NCBI GenBank assembly: GCA_025923935.1
Contig: JAICFA010000003.1
Span: 1 to 39,271, forward strand
Length of the DNA: 39,271 bases
Origin: Candidatus Krumholzibacteriia bacterium
GTDB taxonomy: Bacteria; Krumholzibacteriota; Krumholzibacteriia; WVZY01; JAKEHA01
Reading direction: 5' to 3'
Part shown: piece after piece, positions 11,286 to 35,105 of the stretch
Position numbering within the stretch: position 1 is the stretch's first letter
Layout of the letters: every line of letters begins with the position of its first letter
Position numbers and translations under genes: made by a program
Notes under the pieces: generated by a model
Told to the model about the DNA's origin: nothing
Seen by the model: only the letters and a program-made list of their open reading frames with translations
The model's database searches: none

Positions 11286-12992
11286 TTGAGAAAAATTAGC
11301 CCCGGCCTTTTCGTCGTCTTGGCGGCGGCGGCGGCAGTGCATCTGGCGATTGCCTTACAGGATTTCGGCACGCTCGCGCGCAACGGCTTCCTCTACGACG
11401 ATAGCTTTTATGCCTTCCAGATTGCGCGCAACATCGCGCACGGTGAAGGTGCCACGTTCGACGGCATCCACGCCACCAACGGCTTTCAGCCGCTCTACGT
11501 TGGTGTGCTGGTGCCGCTGTACTGGATTGCCGGGGACAGTCCTACCCTTCCGATTCATCTCGCGCTGATTTTCTCGGCGCTCATCACCGTCGCCACCGCG
11601 TTCATTCTTTATCGGCTGGTGGCGCGCCGCGCCAGCGAGGCGGCCGCGTTGATCGTCGCCGGCGCGTGGGCGTTCTCTCCCATCGTCATTCGACAAGCCG
11701 CCAACGGGCTCGAGACCGCACTGTCGCTGTTTTCGTGCGCGCTTGCCGTCGACTTCTATCTCCACCGCGTGCGCTCGGCGAGCGCGCCGTCGCGCCGCAC
11801 GTTTCTTGCGCTGGGGGCACTGCTTGGCTTCGCCATGCTGGCGCGCGTCGACCTGGGATTCTTGGCACTCGCCCTGGGCCTGGATTATTTGTTGGTGGCC
11901 CGCGGACGCATGCGCGGCGAAGGCGCGGCACTGCCGTGGCGCAGTAATGTCGCCACCGCGCTGGCGGCTGGGATCATCGTGTGTCTGCCGTGGGCCATTT
12001 ACGGCATCGCGTCGGTGGGCTCGCCCCTCTCCGAGAGCGGGCGCGCGACGCGCACGCTGGCCATCGCCTATGCGCCCTTCTTCGATTTGGGATCGTCCAC
12101 GGACCGCGAGCCCAGCGCCGGCTTCATGGCCCAGCACTTCGAGCGCTCGCTCAAGACACTCAAGGTGATTCCCGCCGTGCACCCCGTGTTCCGCGGCGTG
12201 CGCAAGATGTCGGAAGGCATGCACGGCGGCGAGACCGCGGCGAATATCATCGGCGTGATTCTGCTGGGGTCTTCCGCGGCGTGGTGGTGGCGCCGCCGCC
12301 GCAACCGGCCGGAGATGCGCGAGCTCGACTTCTTGCTCCTGTTCTGCGTGATGATGATCGTGGCGTATTCCACGTACGTGTTCGGCGTGTTCTTTTTCCT
12401 GCGCTATTACTATCCGCTGTATTTCGTCGGCATGGTGTTCGCCGGCTTGGCGGTCGACGACATCATCGCGTGGGCGCGCCGCCATTCGCTCGGCGTGCGC
12501 CGCGTCGCCCTCGCGGCCAGCGGGGTGTATGCCTCTGCGTTGTTGTTCATGAGCTACACCAGTGCCTTCCGCACCGTGCCGGTGTACGGCTTCTACGATG
12601 CGGCGCGCTGGGTCGCGACGCACACCGAGGCGTCGGAGACCATCGGCGTGTTCCAGGGCGGTGCCATCGGATATCTCTCCGACCGCCGCGTCGTCAACCT
12701 GGACGGCAAGGTCAACGGGGAAGCGTACCAGGCCATGCGCGAGGGCCGGATGCGCGAATACGTCGACCGCGCCCACATCGACTTCGTGCTCGACAGCGAG
12801 CGCGTCCTCGACCTCTTCCTCGGACCGTGGAGCGACGAAGATCGCGCGCGCATCGCGCACGACACGGTCTTCGACGGCGCCCGCCACGGTGTAAGCGGCT
12901 GGATCGGCTTCCGGCTCTCGCCACCGCGCGGCTACGGCGCCGGTGCCGCGAGCTCGTCGGCGCAGCGCGTGCAGCCGGACCGCGCGCCGTAA
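11286..12992 (+). CDS. Polytopic GT-C-type glycosyltransferase / membrane mannosyltransferase-like protein
   Basis: TTG start; FLYDDSFYAFQIARNIAHGEGATFDGIHATNGFQPLYVGVLVPLYWIAG; multiple transmembrane helices. Confidence 0.78.
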   Translation: MRKISPGLFVVLAAAAAVHLAIALQDFGTLARNGFLYDDSFYAFQIARNIAHGEGATFDGIHATNGFQPLYVGVLVPLYWIAGDSPTLPIHLALIFSALITVATAFILYRLVARRASEAAALIVAGAWAFSPIVIRQAANGLETALSLFSCALAVDFYLHRVRSASAPSRRTFLALGALLGFAMLARVDLGFLALALGLDYLLVARGRMRGEGAALPWRSNVATALAAGIIVCLPWAIYGIASVGSPLSESGRATRTLAIAYAPFFDLGSSTDREPSAGFMAQHFERSLKTLKVIPAVHPVFRGVRKMSEGMHGGETAANIIGVILLGSSAAWWWRRRRNRPEMRELDFLLLFCVMMIVAYSTYVFGVFFFLRYYYPLYFVGMVFAGLAVDDIIAWARRHSLGVRRVALAASGVYASALLFMSYTSAFRTVPVYGFYDAARWVATHTEASETIGVFQGGAIGYLSDRRVVNLDGKVNGEAYQAMREGRMREYVDRAHIDFVLDSERVLDLFLGPWSDEDRARIAHDTVFDGARHGVSGWIGFRLSPPRGYGAGAASSSAQRVQPDRAP

Positions 12993-13094
12993 CCTCGGTT
13001 TCTGCGATCGTCCCTCTCCTGCTCGCTAACCTCGGCCCTGTAATCGTCCCTCTCCGCGCGGAGATAACCTCGGCCTCTGCGATCGTCCCTCTCC
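12990..13094. repeat. Three degenerate tandem copies of a ~37-bp unit with core taacctcggcctctgcgatcgtccctctcc
   Basis: Copies at 12990-13019, 13027-13055 and 13065-13094, read directly from the sequence; the first begins at the TAA stop of the upstream gene. Confidence 0.9.
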
Positions 13095-13177
13095 GCTCAT
13101 ACCGGCGCTCGATGAATCGCAAATTCGTGTTGTAGTCGAGCGCCGAAAATCGCGTCGAGGGATCGATCACAGAGGCC
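13072..13177. repeat. Inverted repeat enclosing a perfect 10-bp hairpin
   Basis: ggcctctgcgatcgtccctc (13072-13091) versus reverse complement of gagggatcgatcacagaggcc (13157-13177); inside it cggcgctcga (13103-13112) pairs perfectly with tcgagcgccg (13136-13145). Confidence 0.85.
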
Positions 13178-14136
13178 TAGTAGTTTTTGATGATGGGTTC
13201 CATCTCGTGCATGAGACGGACGCGGCCGCCGGGGCGTGACAGGACGGGGAGGGCGCGGGGCAGCACCTTGACGTCGAGGGGCCTGTCGCGACGGCCGAGG
13301 TATTCGCCGTCGATGTGAATGGGAAAGGGGTGCGAGGCGGTGACGCGAACGCGTGCGGCGGTATGAAGGCCGATACCGCGCTTGCCGGCGTGGCGACCGC
13401 GAATGGTGCTGGGCAAGAGCGACAGCATGCGCAGGCGCGGCATGCGATCGGCGGTGCACACGTCGAGGTGGCCGTCGTCGGCGACGGCGCGCGGGTTGAT
13501 GTAGAAACCGCCGCCGGCGCGCGGGCCGTTGCCGATCGACACGAGTAGAAATTCGCCGTCGATGCGACGGTTGCCATCGGGCGCGCCAACCGGCTCCGCA
13601 ACGAGATCCCCATCAAAGAGCTCCAACGAGAAGCGATTGGATTCGTACTGCGCGAGAGCTTTTCCCACCGCGAGCAGATACAGCGCGAGTCCGCGCACAC
13701 GCCGGATCGACAGACTGTGATAGGTAACGAGTGCTTCGAAGCCGATGCCGATGCTGTTGGCACAGTAGCGGTCGCCGCAGTCGAGGACGTCGAGACGAAA
13801 GCCCGCGCCGCGCGCCACCACCTCGGCGAGCTCTTCCGGCGTACGGGGACATTCCACCAAGGACGCGAAGTCGTTGCCCGAGCCGCTGGGGACGACCACC
13901 AACGGGACCGGGTGGGGCATGAGCCCGTTGACGACTTCGCTCACGGTCCCGTCGCCGCCCACCGCGCAAACCACGTCCGAATCGGCCGCCGCCTGCCGTG
14001 CTAGCTCGCTCGCGTGGCCCGGTCCTTGCGTCCAAAGGAATTGGGTATCGCCACGTACCGCACGGGCATAGCGCTCGACGGTGGTTCGCGTCCTACCGCG
14101 CCCGGCCATGGGGTTGGCTATGAAACTGACTCGCAT
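13177..14136 (-). CDS. Diacylglycerol/lipid kinase (YegS/DAGK-catalytic family)
   Basis: MRVSFIANPMAGRGRT, CAVGGDGTVSEVVNGLM, VVVPSGSGNDFA, IGNGPRAGGGFYINPRAVADDGHLDVC. Confidence 0.95.
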   Translation of the reverse strand: MRVSFIANPMAGRGRTRTTVERYARAVRGDTQFLWTQGPGHASELARQAAADSDVVCAVGGDGTVSEVVNGLMPHPVPLVVVPSGSGNDFASLVECPRTPEELAEVVARGAGFRLDVLDCGDRYCANSIGIGFEALVTYHSLSIRRVRGLALYLLAVGKALAQYESNRFSLELFDGDLVAEPVGAPDGNRRIDGEFLLVSIGNGPRAGGGFYINPRAVADDGHLDVCTADRMPRLRMLSLLPSTIRGRHAGKRGIGLHTAARVRVTASHPFPIHIDGEYLGRRDRPLDVKVLPRALPVLSRPGGRVRLMHEMEPIIKNY

Positions 14137-16048
14137 ATTTTGCACGCGACCCTGCGCATCGCCACAGGGACACCCGAGGCTATCCGAGCAGCTGCGCGCG
14201 CGAAAACGGAATTCTGCGGGGGGCGCGGCGGTCGCCGCATTGGTGCTCGGCGCCTCCGCCACGCTTTGGGCCTCCCCGACGGCCACCGCGCTGCGCGACG
14301 TCTGGCACGTCGGACCCATGCCGGCGGTACGTGCGCTGTGCCATACCGGCAACCTGCTGTGGGTGGGAACGGCGGCCGGGCTCTATCTCGTCGATATTCG
14401 TAACGGCACCGTCCTCGCCCACGAAGTGGCGGGGGAGAAGCTGCCGTCGACATCGGTTCGCGCCATCGCGGCCAAGGGTGACAGCGTGTTCGTTGGCACC
14501 GACGCGGGGCTGGCCATGTTTCGCCGTGGGAAGGACGGTACCATCGAGTCGCGCGTGTTCGTGCCGGCTGCACCCGGACCTCTCAAGAAAGTCCCGCTCG
14601 CGCGCATCGCGGGACTGGGCGTGGGTGCGAACGGTGACGTGCTCCTCGCGACGTCGGGGCGCGGCGCCGGCATCATTACGCGCGGGCGCGGCTACGCCAT
14701 CACGCGGCGCGATTCGCTGCTCGACGACAAGGTGTTCGCCGTTGCCGATCGCGCCGATGGGACGCGCTACTTCGCGACGTCGATGGGATTGTGCGCGCAA
14801 GTGCGCGACACCGTGTTCGTCTCCTTCCAAGCCGGCGCGGGTATTCCGCGCGGCGAAGTGCGGGCACTCGCGCCCGCCGATCGAAAAACGTTCTACTTGC
14901 TGGTCGCGAATCACGGCGTATTTCGCTTCGACGGCGCGCACGCGGCGGAAGTGAAGTCGCCGCCCGACGTGCGGCTGCGCGACGCCATCGCGATCTCGGC
15001 GGGCAGCGACGGCACCTTGTGGGCCGTGGGCGACGGCTGGATCTACGCGCGGCGTGGAAGTAAGTGGACGCGCGTAACGCCGCCGGAATCGGATCGCGCA
15101 GCGCGCTGGACGGTGGTGGTCGCCGATGGCGCCGGCGCGTTCGTGGGGTCGAGCGATGGCCGCGTGCTGGCGGTGAATCGCGGGGGTGCCTTGCGTGTGG
15201 TACTGCCCGTGGGATTGCCGGCGGCGCGCGTGGAGTCGATCGCTGCCGACGGAACGGGTACCGCCTGGTTCGTGTGCGATGGGCAGCTGGTACGCGCCGA
15301 CGCCGCGGCGCGCACGTTCACGACGGACGACGCACCGAGCGACGTACGCGCCATCGCGCTGTCGCCCGTGGGCGAGGTGTGGACCGCGGGCCGCTGGAGT
15401 GTTCGCCACCGCGCGGCCGATGGATGGGCCGACGCCCACCCCGATGTGGCGGAGCCGGACCCGTCATTCACCGCGCTGGTCGCGGATGGGCGCGGGGTGT
15501 GGGTGGGCACCGCATCGGGAGCGCTGTACCGCTACGACGGCGGACTGTGGCTGCGCATGGCGCGCGCCAGCGGTGCTCGCGTCGACGAAATACACGCCGC
15601 GGACGAAAGCGCGTGGTCGCTGCGCGACGGCCGACTCTATCGCAGCGAAGACGGGCGCTGGCGGCATTACGCCGGCATCGACAGTGCCGCCGCGGTGGTC
15701 GATGTTGCGCGCTCGCCGGGTGGGGTGTGGGTGGCGGCGACCGAGACCGACCTGTACGCCTTCGACGAAGCGAAGCGCGCCTGGAAGCCGGGACGCGACT
15801 GGAGTGCGTCCGGTCCGGGTGCCCTGCGCGGTCGCATGCGCGCGTTGTCGTTCGACGCCGAGGGGCGCTTCATCGTCGGTACCACCGAAGGCGTGGCGCT
15901 GTGGGGTGCCAAGAGTGTGCGCTGGCTCACAGCGGGCGATGGACTCGGCGGCGCCCATGTCGCCGACCTCGCCGTCGACGGCGACCGTTTGTGGATTGGC
16001 TTTGCCGAAGATGGTGTTTCGGTAATTTCGCTGCGTGAGTTATGGTGA
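14120..16048 (+). CDS. Exported two-component-regulator-type beta-propeller protein without a kinase domain
   Basis: Signal-like segment GGAAVAALVLGASATLWAS; repeated blades such as LLWVGTAAGLYLVDIRNG, SVFVGTDAGLAMFRRG, GVWVGTASGALYRYDGG, RFIVGTTEGVALWG, RLWIGFAEDGVSVI. Confidence 0.8.
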   Translation: MKLTRIFCTRPCASPQGHPRLSEQLRARKRNSAGGAAVAALVLGASATLWASPTATALRDVWHVGPMPAVRALCHTGNLLWVGTAAGLYLVDIRNGTVLAHEVAGEKLPSTSVRAIAAKGDSVFVGTDAGLAMFRRGKDGTIESRVFVPAAPGPLKKVPLARIAGLGVGANGDVLLATSGRGAGIITRGRGYAITRRDSLLDDKVFAVADRADGTRYFATSMGLCAQVRDTVFVSFQAGAGIPRGEVRALAPADRKTFYLLVANHGVFRFDGAHAAEVKSPPDVRLRDAIAISAGSDGTLWAVGDGWIYARRGSKWTRVTPPESDRAARWTVVVADGAGAFVGSSDGRVLAVNRGGALRVVLPVGLPAARVESIAADGTGTAWFVCDGQLVRADAAARTFTTDDAPSDVRAIALSPVGEVWTAGRWSVRHRAADGWADAHPDVAEPDPSFTALVADGRGVWVGTASGALYRYDGGLWLRMARASGARVDEIHAADESAWSLRDGRLYRSEDGRWRHYAGIDSAAAVVDVARSPGGVWVAATETDLYAFDEAKRAWKPGRDWSASGPGALRGRMRALSFDAEGRFIVGTTEGVALWGAKSVRWLTAGDGLGGAHVADLAVDGDRLWIGFAEDGVSVISLRELW

Positions 16049-32321: not shown

Positions 32322-35105
32322 TTGGAAATGAAAAAGAAGCTTCTCATTATCGCAGGCGTGGTCGTGGCGGTCATCGTCATTGCCATCGTCATCGTCGGCG
32401 CGAATCTCGACAAGATCATCAACAGCCGCAAGGGCGATCTGCTCGCCCGCGCGAAAGCGACCACGGGCCGCGACATCACCATCGGCGAGGTGGGCGTGTC
32501 GTGGTGGCCGCCGGTGGGGGCGCGCGTGTCCGACGTCGTCATCTCCGATGACCCCGCGGTTTCCAACCAGCCCTTCGTGACCGCCAAAGACGTGCGCATC
32601 AATGTGAAGCTCCTTCCGCTCCTGCGTAAGCAGGTCGAAGTGGGGCGTTTCGTCCTGGTCGAGCCCAACATCACCGTGGTCAAGCTCGACGCCAAGCGTT
32701 TCAACTTCACCAGCATGATCGAACAAGCGTCGGGAGTATCGCCGGCCGGGCCGGCGGGTAGCACGCCGCCAACCTCCGCGCCCAAGGAGCAGGCCGCGTT
32801 CGCGCTCGGCTTCGCGGATATCAAAGACGGCACGGTGCATTACATCGATCGCACTACCGGTTTCGACCGCACCATCAAGGACATCGATTTCGAAGCGGAG
32901 AACGTGGGCTTCGACTCGGAGATGAAGGCAACACTCGCGGCCGCGGTCTTCGGCGACGAGCAAGATGTGAAGCTGGACGCCAAAGTGGGTCCGATCGGGA
33001 AACAAAACACGCCCGAGGCGATGGCGCAGGCGCCGTTATCGGCGTCGTTCGAGCTGGACGACGTGACCTTCGCCGAGTTGCAAGCGTTTGCGCCGCCCAA
33101 ACCGGGTGAACGCAAGAAGCCGGCGCAAGAAGGAACACTTTCTGCGAAGGCATCGCTCGAGGGGAAACTCGGAGAAGCGCGCCTGGAGGCACTCACGGCC
33201 GACATCGCCGCCTTCGGCGCCAAAGAATCCAACATCAAGCTGGAAGCGAGCGGCGGACCGTTCAACTTGCTGGGCGACTCGAGCCAGGTCTACGCCGGCG
33301 CGAACGTAAAAGGCCAACTGAGCGCCGGGCCGGTTCCGCTGGACAACGTGAAATTGGCGCCCAAGGATCCGTCCAAGCCCGCGCCCAAGTTGGGCGGCGA
33401 CGTAAACGGTCGCGTCACCTTCGACGGCAACATGGCCGGACTTCCGTTTCAAGGCGACGTGGACGCGACCAACGCGAGCTATGAAGTGCCCGCGCAGCTG
33501 GTGAAAAAAGCGGGGGTTCCCGCCAAAGCAAATTTCAAGGGAACATTCCGTCCGCAGGGTGCACCCAACGAGGGAATCGAGCTTTCCGACATCGATCTCG
33601 TCGTGCACACCATCAAGGCGAATGGATCCGGCAAGATCGTGCCCTTCAAGGGCCGCGAGTCGATGAGTATCGCCATCGATGCGGCGACGTCGCTGGCCCC
33701 GTTGCAGGAATTGCTGCCGGCGATGGCCGCCTCGCCGCCTACCGGCGACGCCAAGGTCAACGTGCGCATCTCGCGCTCCGGGCCGCCCCAAACCCCGCCC
33801 AACATCACGGGTAGCGCCACCGTGTCGAACTTCGGCGCCAAGGTGACCAACGTCCCCAAGCCGATCAGCGGCGGCAATGCCACCATCACCTTCAGCGGCA
33901 AAACCGCGAGCATTCCCAACGCGACCTTCGCCATCGGCAAAAGCAATTTCAAGGTGAACGCGGAAGTCACTTCGTTCGCGCCGATGGCTGCTGCGTACAC
34001 CGTGACCTCACCGGAGATCTATCGCGCCGATGTGCAAGCGCCGGCCGCCGGTGCCAAGCCGATGCCGCGCGAGGAAGTGTTTCGCAACGTCACCGTCAAG
34101 GGCACGAGCAGTCAGAAGGCACCCAAGGTGATGGAGAACAACATTACCATCACGTCGGGTAGCGGTATCGCCGCCAACATCGACTATAAGGATGCCGAAG
34201 CGGTCGTGCGCGCCACACCCGAGCAAGCCTTCATCGATCACTTCTCCGCCAACGCGATGGCGGGGAGCATCAGCGGCACCGGCGTATTCCGTCCCAAAGA
34301 ATCCAAGTTTGATGTGAAGGCGAAAGTCGACAAAGTCAATTTGACCGAATACTTCCGCTACAAGAGTCCCGCGCTGGCAGAAGCGGTGGCGGGACGAATC
34401 AGCGGCGACATCGATTTGGCCGGTCACGGCAAGACGTGGGAAGCGCTGCAAAAGACGCTAACCGGCCGTGGTGGCGCAGTGGTGTTGGAAGGCGCCTTGT
34501 TGAACACCAACCTGACCGAGCAGTTGTTCAACGGCTTCGCGGCCAGTCCCTTGGTGCCGCCGACTGTCATTGCCAACATCAAGAAGAAGAACCCGACCCT
34601 CTTCGGCACCAACAAGACCATGTTCGAGAATCTCGCCGGCAAGATCGCCATTCAAGGCGGCAAGATCAGCACGGCAGATTTGAAGCTGGCGTCCAACGAT
34701 TTTTCGCTGGTGGGCGACGGTTGGTTTTCGTTCGACAAGACGCTCGACTTGAACACCACGCTGACACTGTCGCAGAAGCTCACGAACGATCTCATCGCCG
34801 AAATTCCGGCCGCAAAGTTCTTGCTCAACTCCAATGGACGCTTCGAAGTTCCGCTGAAGCTCACCGGTGCGATCATGAAGCCCGCCGTCGGCGTGGATAG
34901 CAACGCCATTCAGGCGCGGTTGCAGCAAGGTCTGGTGCAGCAGGGCAAGCAAGACCTCAACAAGAAGGCGACCGAGACGGTGAAGGGGCTTTTGGAAGGA
35001 ATCGGTAAGAAGAAAGAACCGCCCAAAACGCCGCCCGCGGAGCAGCCCAAAACACCGCCCACGACGCCACCCACGACTCCGCCGGCCGACACCACCAAGG
35101 GCTAA
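32322..35105 (+). CDS. AsmA-family protein
   Basis: N-terminal TM, DKIINSRKGDLLARAKATTGRDITIGEVGVSWWPPVGARVSDVVI; C-terminal AsmA-type GxFxxxxxTxxL-rich region; Pro/Thr-rich tail. Confidence 0.88.
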   Translation: MEMKKKLLIIAGVVVAVIVIAIVIVGANLDKIINSRKGDLLARAKATTGRDITIGEVGVSWWPPVGARVSDVVISDDPAVSNQPFVTAKDVRINVKLLPLLRKQVEVGRFVLVEPNITVVKLDAKRFNFTSMIEQASGVSPAGPAGSTPPTSAPKEQAAFALGFADIKDGTVHYIDRTTGFDRTIKDIDFEAENVGFDSEMKATLAAAVFGDEQDVKLDAKVGPIGKQNTPEAMAQAPLSASFELDDVTFAELQAFAPPKPGERKKPAQEGTLSAKASLEGKLGEARLEALTADIAAFGAKESNIKLEASGGPFNLLGDSSQVYAGANVKGQLSAGPVPLDNVKLAPKDPSKPAPKLGGDVNGRVTFDGNMAGLPFQGDVDATNASYEVPAQLVKKAGVPAKANFKGTFRPQGAPNEGIELSDIDLVVHTIKANGSGKIVPFKGRESMSIAIDAATSLAPLQELLPAMAASPPTGDAKVNVRISRSGPPQTPPNITGSATVSNFGAKVTNVPKPISGGNATITFSGKTASIPNATFAIGKSNFKVNAEVTSFAPMAAAYTVTSPEIYRADVQAPAAGAKPMPREEVFRNVTVKGTSSQKAPKVMENNITITSGSGIAANIDYKDAEAVVRATPEQAFIDHFSANAMAGSISGTGVFRPKESKFDVKAKVDKVNLTEYFRYKSPALAEAVAGRISGDIDLAGHGKTWEALQKTLTGRGGAVVLEGALLNTNLTEQLFNGFAASPLVPPTVIANIKKKNPTLFGTNKTMFENLAGKIAIQGGKISTADLKLASNDFSLVGDGWFSFDKTLDLNTTLTLSQKLTNDLIAEIPAAKFLLNSNGRFEVPLKLTGAIMKPAVGVDSNAIQARLQQGLVQQGKQDLNKKATETVKGLLEGIGKKKEPPKTPPAEQPKTPPTTPPTTPPADTTKG

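Follow-up and report, generated by a model that had tools for sequence, protein, structure and literature searches.

A hairpin between two convergent genes

The window, by which we mean the whole stretch of 39,271 nucleotides from a Candidatus Krumholzibacteriia bacterium that was analyzed here, contains a cluster of repeats in the spacer between two convergent genes. A sequence-only reading of this DNA had described three direct copies of a short sequence, a fourth copy in inverted orientation, a perfect 10-bp stem, and contacts with the stop codons of both genes, and we found each of these at the positions given below.

11286-12992, plus strand: upstream convergent neighbor, a GT-C gene according to the sequence-only reading; its stop codon is copied along with the arm
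12990-13025: extra half-element copy 1, consisting of the TAA stop and the outer arm up to the internal loop (TAACCTCGGTTTCTGCGATCGTCCCTCTCC plus spacer)
13026-13064: extra half-element copy 2, diverged (63% against copy 1, ungapped)
13072-13177, minus strand: complete hairpin element; the minus strand (m) is the probable folded strand
13072-13091: outer stem arm 1, GGCCTCTGCGATCGTCCCTC, based on fold and covariation
13092-13096, partner 13152-13156: TC/CGC on the plus strand, which is the GA mismatch module and 3-bp helix on the minus strand
13097-13102, partner AAAATC at 13146-13151: conserved internal loop side TCATAC, invariant alignment columns
13103-13145: inner stem of 10 bp (CGGCGCTCGA/TCGAGCGCCG) and apical loop
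13157-13177: outer stem arm 2, GAGGGA-T-CGATCACAGAGGCC, with a one-base bulge at 13163
13177-14352, minus strand: downstream convergent neighbor, a lipid kinase gene according to the sequence-only reading; its stop adjoins the hairpin

The direct copies start at 12990, 13026/27, and 13065, giving start-to-start distances of 36 and 39, and Tandem Repeats Finder reports 12990-13096 in the window with a period of 39 and 2.8 copies. Their core, TCTGCGATCGTCCCTCTCC, occurs three times in the window with three or fewer mismatches, compared to 0.01 occurrences expected. The first copy starts with the TAA (12990-12992) of the plus-strand gene, while the inverted copy, CGATCACAGAGGCC at 13164-13177, forms the last arm and touches the minus-strand stop codon at 13177-13179. 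The inner stem is formed by 13103-13112 and 13136-13145. Elsewhere in the window, 35022-35073 holds a short tandem repeat (CCCAAAACACCGCCCACGAAGCAA) with a period of 24 and 2.2 copies.

The real unit at this locus is a 106-bp hairpin, 13072-13177, which is larger than the core described in the sequence-only reading. The hairpin's two arms are formed by the third direct copy and the inverted copy. The two upstream direct copies are half-element duplicates that repeat one arm with a few neighboring bases, among them the TAA. The whole hairpin folds far better than shuffled controls, both as RNA (z = -10.0 for the plus strand and -9.4 for the minus strand) and as plus-strand DNA (z = -7.9).

A family of hairpins within one bacterial order

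A core search of the window's own genome (G000; 3.16 Mb, 418 contigs, 89% complete) revealed that 13 bases, ATCGTCCCTCTCC, open a unit of about 110 bp at many places. We aligned 17 full-length copies from G000 (alignment A1), and a model derived from this alignment found about 25 further G000 copies, belonging to a shorter (~99-bp) subfamily, as well as copies elsewhere in the order. A second, core-only model of the minus strand (R2) matches the window at 13085-13163 with a rough E-value of 9e-13. Copy numbers given here are model-search matches among the candidates scored: R2 matched 44 in G000, 35 in G001, 17 in G002, 14 in G003, and 4 in G004. Weak, hairpin-supported copies were found in another family of the class (five in G037 and one in G020). 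The copies analyzed below number 121 in seven genomes. Among the candidates scored, the other 73 genomes of the class gave no R2 match at E ≤ 0.001 (E-values being rough), and by the same search two related genomes and most other families of the class had no copies. The core is thus present elsewhere in the genome and in relatives, and the suggestion of a dispersed palindromic element was borne out, with about 45 copies in G000 and a family across the order.

When 84,980 named genomes were scanned for the pattern, the only carriers were four MAGs, namely Ca. Latescibacterota CS4-C107, bin70, and bin977 and one from Krumholzibacteriia. The core pattern was absent from viral contigs, no family match was found in phages or plasmids, and blastn against 5,426 E. 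coli genomes gave no match. Rfam yielded no matches in the window, the best sub-threshold hit being a microRNA hairpin at 19.4 bits against a gathering score of 52.2, and we reject a known RNA family on the absence of a match above threshold.

Several further observations concern individual genomes. Two G004 loci, L290 (tuf-rpsJ) and L322 (rpmJ-rpsM), carry a second core type, GACGCGCGTATTTGAGCGG...CCGCTCAATAGATAGCG, within the same overall architecture. Because this second type escapes R2, the true copy number of G004 exceeds four. In G037, three elements lie in a row within 600 bp (L204, contig C64, 64.6-65.2 kb), and an integron integrase gene (L286) is located 62 kb from them on the same contig. 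The G000 bin holds two different copies of the infA-rpmJ-rpsM region (contig C13, 21.2-22.7 kb, and contig C20, 19.8-21.0 kb), possibly reflecting mixed strains or species. Finally, a subset of G001 copies (L085, L119, L126, L128, L129, and L237) share a further conserved flanking motif about 25-45 nt outside the core. On one side this is CCTTGATCCGTCAA; the other side has either the inverted motif or an AT-rich stretch, and these hairpins look as though they were set within a larger composite repeat.

The outer stem conserves pairing rather than sequence

Across the copies, the unit is a hairpin of about 95-110 bp. Read inward on the m strand, which denotes the strand of the fold and is the minus strand at the window element, it has an outer stem that leads into a GA/GA mismatch and a 3-bp helix; beyond these, a conserved internal loop precedes the inner stem and its loop. 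The outer stem is about 20 bp long and is commonly interrupted by a one-base bulge 6 bp from the core, with about 14 bp on the far side; the bulge is enriched at stem position 7. GA is present on both sides of the core in 97 of the 121 copies, and the 3-bp helix is CGC/GCG in 56 copies and GGC/GCC in 34.

Applied to A1, RNAalifold gave 38 pairs, and compensatory double changes occurred at 18 of these. In this structure 96% of cells paired; its level of covariation was reached by 0 of 500 shuffles, for copies that have common ancestry. The R2 set behaved in the same manner, again with copies of common ancestry: 91.9% of cells were paired and 12 of 17 pairs were double-changed, a result matched by 0 of 500 shuffles. 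In four genome sets, sequence information falls to background just past the stem ends and mostly remains at or below 0.4 bits outside, and the hairpin itself is therefore the repeated unit. Within a species, a core of about 57 nt is conserved. When two copies within a genome match at 95% or more of the core, their outer stems average an ungapped identity of only 42-64% (G000, G001, G002, and G003), which shows that the stems are nearly free in sequence and are held in pairing. One locus, L045, is a mosaic of a long-family outer stem and a short-family core.

Extra arm copies are local duplications

A near-exact copy (at least 14 of 16 bases) of an element's own arm was found within about 150 bp for 8 of 120 copies, compared to 0 of 600 controls, in counts of copies that share ancestry. 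Many of these partial arm copies reach 2-8 bases into the core, stop at the internal loop, and bring flanking bases with them. The extra arm copies are local duplications. An arm duplication that ends at the internal loop would be expected if the folded apex stalls replication. Besides the window, a second clear case of half-element copies is L036 (G000, contig C175), where tandem copies lie upstream of the element on the m strand and end at GACGCGA/GAAAGCGA. The sequence-only reading had also considered a small repeat-peptide open reading frame at the window locus. This idea did not hold up: tandem arm copies occur at few loci and are local duplications, and base pairing, not reading frame, is what is conserved between copies.

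One strand of the hairpin tolerates wobble pairs

In a strand-neutral alignment, the stem wobbles read as G.U on m in 109 cases and as A.C on m in 28 (p = 2e-12, with copies of common ancestry). For stem pairs outside the search model, the counts were 55 G.U and 13 A.C. When states were collapsed by position and genome to allow for this ancestry, 36 G.U and 11 A.C remained (p = 3e-4). By itself, this asymmetry fits either DNA or RNA made from the m strand. The excess is equally strong at copies where m is antisense to both neighbors (38 G.U and 6 A.C), so read-through mRNA cannot explain the wobble bias. A G.T pair is tolerated in DNA too, which makes single-stranded DNA folding of m the simplest reading, and these patterns probably reflect folded single-stranded DNA and not read-through mRNA.

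In G001, GC skew places m on the C-rich strand 18 times and on the other strand five times; on contig C12, a strand switch at dnaA agrees with seven of eight copies. The GC skew of G002 is too noisy for a replichore reading. The replication-strand bias, assessed mainly in G001, is modest and tentative. A mutational strand bias is disfavored as the cause of the G.U excess because deamination on the C-rich strand, where m mostly lies in G001, should push the bias the other way.

Hairpins occupy shared positions in essential operons

Genes were called here from codon usage and without annotation, and are approximate; rplC, rplQ, and tuf were named by sequence and gene order, and other gene names are from Pfam. 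With these calls, 34 of the 121 copies lie between convergent genes, 43 between co-directional genes with m antisense and 29 with m sense, and four between divergent genes, the rest being unclear. The median distance to a stop codon in G000 is 6 nt. Some copies are found inside operons, at rpsJ-rplC, tuf-rpsJ, rpoA-rplQ, and lepA-lepB. A specific regulon can be rejected, as the neighbors are assorted housekeeping genes. The proposal that the repeats act as a transcription barrier for convergent genes does not hold in general: convergent genes flank just 34 of the 121 copies, 72 of 121 lie between co-directional genes, some of them inside translation operons, and no T-tract follows the stem.

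An all-against-all comparison of neighbors identified spacers that hold hairpins in different genera or species, which we refer to as shared seats: rpoA-rplQ (G000 and G003), the spacer beside aroA (G003 and G004), lepA-lepB (G002 and G004), and rpsJ-rplC (G000 and G002). A rough estimate puts the number of such coincidences expected by chance well below one. In G004, tuf-rpsJ, rpsJ-rplC, and rpmJ-rpsM likewise hold long hairpins, whose core is related or different, at the very sites of the element in G002. Empty seats were also found: rpsJ-rplC is a short, empty spacer in G003 and G005, and the tuf-rpsJ seat is empty in G000, where the spacer is short, as well as in G003 and G005.

At shared seats, the core is of the host species' own type and the orientation is sometimes opposite. 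The arms of orthologous G002/G004 elements rank 17, 38, 86, and 101 in similarity among 119 pairs and are no closer than unrelated pairs, and we therefore reject vertical descent of the stem sequence at these seats. Taken together, species-type cores, opposite orientations, and unrelated stems at the same seats imply that the hairpins are replaced, undergo gene conversion, or insert repeatedly at favored seats. Seats kept from one genus to another are unusual for a simple mobile element; they form the strongest objection to simple mobility and suggest a host function or strong hot spots.

The family resembles known repeats only in part

REP elements are dispersed, extragenic, and palindromic, lie mostly between co-directional or convergent genes, 3' of coding regions, and form species-specific families that are not obviously autonomous (PMC3733652). 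The hairpins resemble REP, REPIN, and BIME elements as dispersed, species-specific extragenic palindromes downstream of genes that are not obviously autonomous, present at 4-45 copies per carrier genome of the order (among scored candidates), with 4 of 121 between divergent genes. Unlike REPs and REPINs, the family has a unit of about 100 bp (96-110 bp, compared to 20-40 bp for a REP), no conserved GTAG/CGTC tag at the stem base, conserved internal loops, a free outer stem, and a strand-fixed wobble. A search for the Y1 transposase (RAYT, PF01797) found none in G000, G001, G002, or G004 and one marginal match in G003. We reject REP/RAYT membership on unit length, the missing tag, and the absence of RAYT from four of the carrier genomes.

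ERIC/IRU elements are imperfect palindromes of 100-150 bp that form long stem-loops in intercistronic spacers, in both orientations (PMC2229807). The hairpins share with these, and with Correia/NEMIS, RUP, and RPE elements, a long imperfect palindrome in intercistronic spacers. In contrast to ERIC and MITE-like repeats, their arms are conserved as pairing without a common sequence across genomes, and seats common to genera bear different cores. No TA target duplication, conserved terminal inverted repeat, or conserved flanking dinucleotide was seen in the family, and the blastn search of the 5,426 E. coli genomes showed no similarity to enterobacterial ERIC.

The attC site is a long hairpin recognized by structure, with a variable stem, extra-helical base(s), an internal spacer, and one preferred folded strand (PMC3053210). 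The hairpins are likewise long, with a variable stem, an extra-helical base, and an internal unpaired spacer, and their strand-fixed G.U excess may parallel the folding of one attC strand that is recognized by structure. They differ from attC sites in lacking RYYYAAC/GTTRRRY core sites at the stem ends, in not lying between cassettes, and in usually having one bulge, compared to the pair of extra-helical bases on one side of attC. Integron integrase (TIGR02249) above the cut-off was absent from G000, G001, and G002 and present only in G004 (L288), G020 (L287), and G037 (L286); these genes, above the NCBIfam cut-off, come from a little-sampled lineage. Membership in attC is rejected, given the missing core sites and the lack, in both high-copy genomes (G000 and G001), of an integrase above the cut-off.

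As with an intrinsic terminator, a G+C-rich hairpin lies just past a stop codon. Unlike a terminator, this is a structured hairpin of about 38 pairs with a conserved core that also occurs inside operons, and no T-tract follows the stem: the T fraction is 0.20-0.24 on the m 3' side (control 0.19-0.22) and 0.26-0.32 on the other side. We reject an intrinsic terminator on this ground. In lifestyle, the nearest counterparts are REP and ERIC, and in likely mode of recognition attC.

Discussion

What lies in the window belongs to a dispersed, strand-biased, covarying family of hairpins with precise ends, placed in spacers just after genes. Our main reading, to which we give a probability of roughly 0.5, is that the window hairpin is one copy of a set of non-autonomous, strand-specifically folded palindromic elements of about 95-110 bp that is dispersed in one bacterial order. 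The mobilizer and function of the family are matters that we infer from sequence. In this reading, the m strand would act as folded single-stranded DNA that replication or repair exposes; a putative trans-acting protein would recognize the folded strand mainly by its shape and would copy, replace, or convert elements at permissive seats. Such copying or conversion would explain the species-wide homogeneity, the exchange of core and stem modules, and the turnover at fixed positions. Against this reading, searches for Y1 transposase (none in G000, G001, G002, or G004) and integron integrase (above the cut-off only in G004, G020, and G037) found no mobilizing enzyme for the family, and we saw neither a target-site duplication nor a clean recent insertion facing an empty site in a close strain. 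A more specific version, which we put forward tentatively, is that a shape-recognized single-stranded DNA system operates without a RAYT or integron integrase, with fixed seats keeping a hairpin as its core is exchanged for the type now current in the species, flipped, or replaced. That these seats, including spacers of the S10 and alpha operons, would be kept over genus-level and larger distances is likewise possible but far from assured. Single-strand insertion-sequence models predict the lagging-template strand, and the G001 folded strand, lying on the C-rich strand opposite to it, speaks against our main reading.

Alternatively, the hairpins could be intercistronic mRNA elements, similar to ERIC and REP, that serve RNase III/RNase E processing, 3'-end protection, or attenuation for the preceding gene. 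Such RNA roles have been published for REPs and ERICs (PMC3733652, PMC2229807), and the tight spacing behind stop codons (the 6-nt median in G000), the copies within translation operons such as rpsJ-rplC and rpoA-rplQ, and the great stability of the hairpin as RNA would all fit. We nonetheless consider this somewhat unlikely, because the G.U-tolerant strand is antisense to both neighbors in 43 of 72 co-directional cases, with the 38 to 6 excess there, orientation differs between orthologous seats, and no T-tract is present.

It is unlikely, in our judgment, that the hairpins are instead polar or structural DNA maintenance sites (for replication pausing, or for binding of nucleoid or repair proteins) whose positions are selected and whose cores co-evolve with a binder. 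This could account for seats common to genera with species-specific cores, for the correlation of orientation with replication in G001, and for the avoidance of coding DNA and divergent promoters. It sits poorly with copy numbers that range from 4 to 45 across related genomes and with two relatives and most other families of the class having none (all among scored candidates), as well as with the tuf-rpsJ seat being empty in G000, G003, and G005.

We think it very improbable that the family spread through an RNA intermediate, in which an m-sense master transcript is reverse-transcribed and inserted and the G.U pairs record the master's RNA structure. A strand-fixed G.U bias regardless of local transcription and precise unit ends agree with this idea, but we noticed no poly(A) tail or 5' truncation series, and the half copies are local duplications that carry flanking sequence. 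Lastly, a chance quasi-palindrome with local tandem duplication and no family, as an artifact of a GC-rich spacer, has a negligible chance of being correct: it is true that two of the three direct copies are local duplications found at the window locus only, but 121 copies in seven genomes with strong covariation refute it.

Palindromic repeats of bacteria are generally defined by their sequence, and to our knowledge a mechanism of spread is known only for those linked to RAYTs. Here, the outer stem of a hairpin family conserves shape, not sequence. The shared positions and species-specific cores suggest that short hairpins are replaced or undergo gene conversion at fixed seats in essential operons, a behavior for which we know of no described counterpart. 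We found no description of the family in the openly accessible literature; it was previously uncatalogued and looks like a new structure-recognized mobile or maintenance site. Because the family bears evidence of the strand that folds, the question of whether it functions as DNA or RNA becomes testable.
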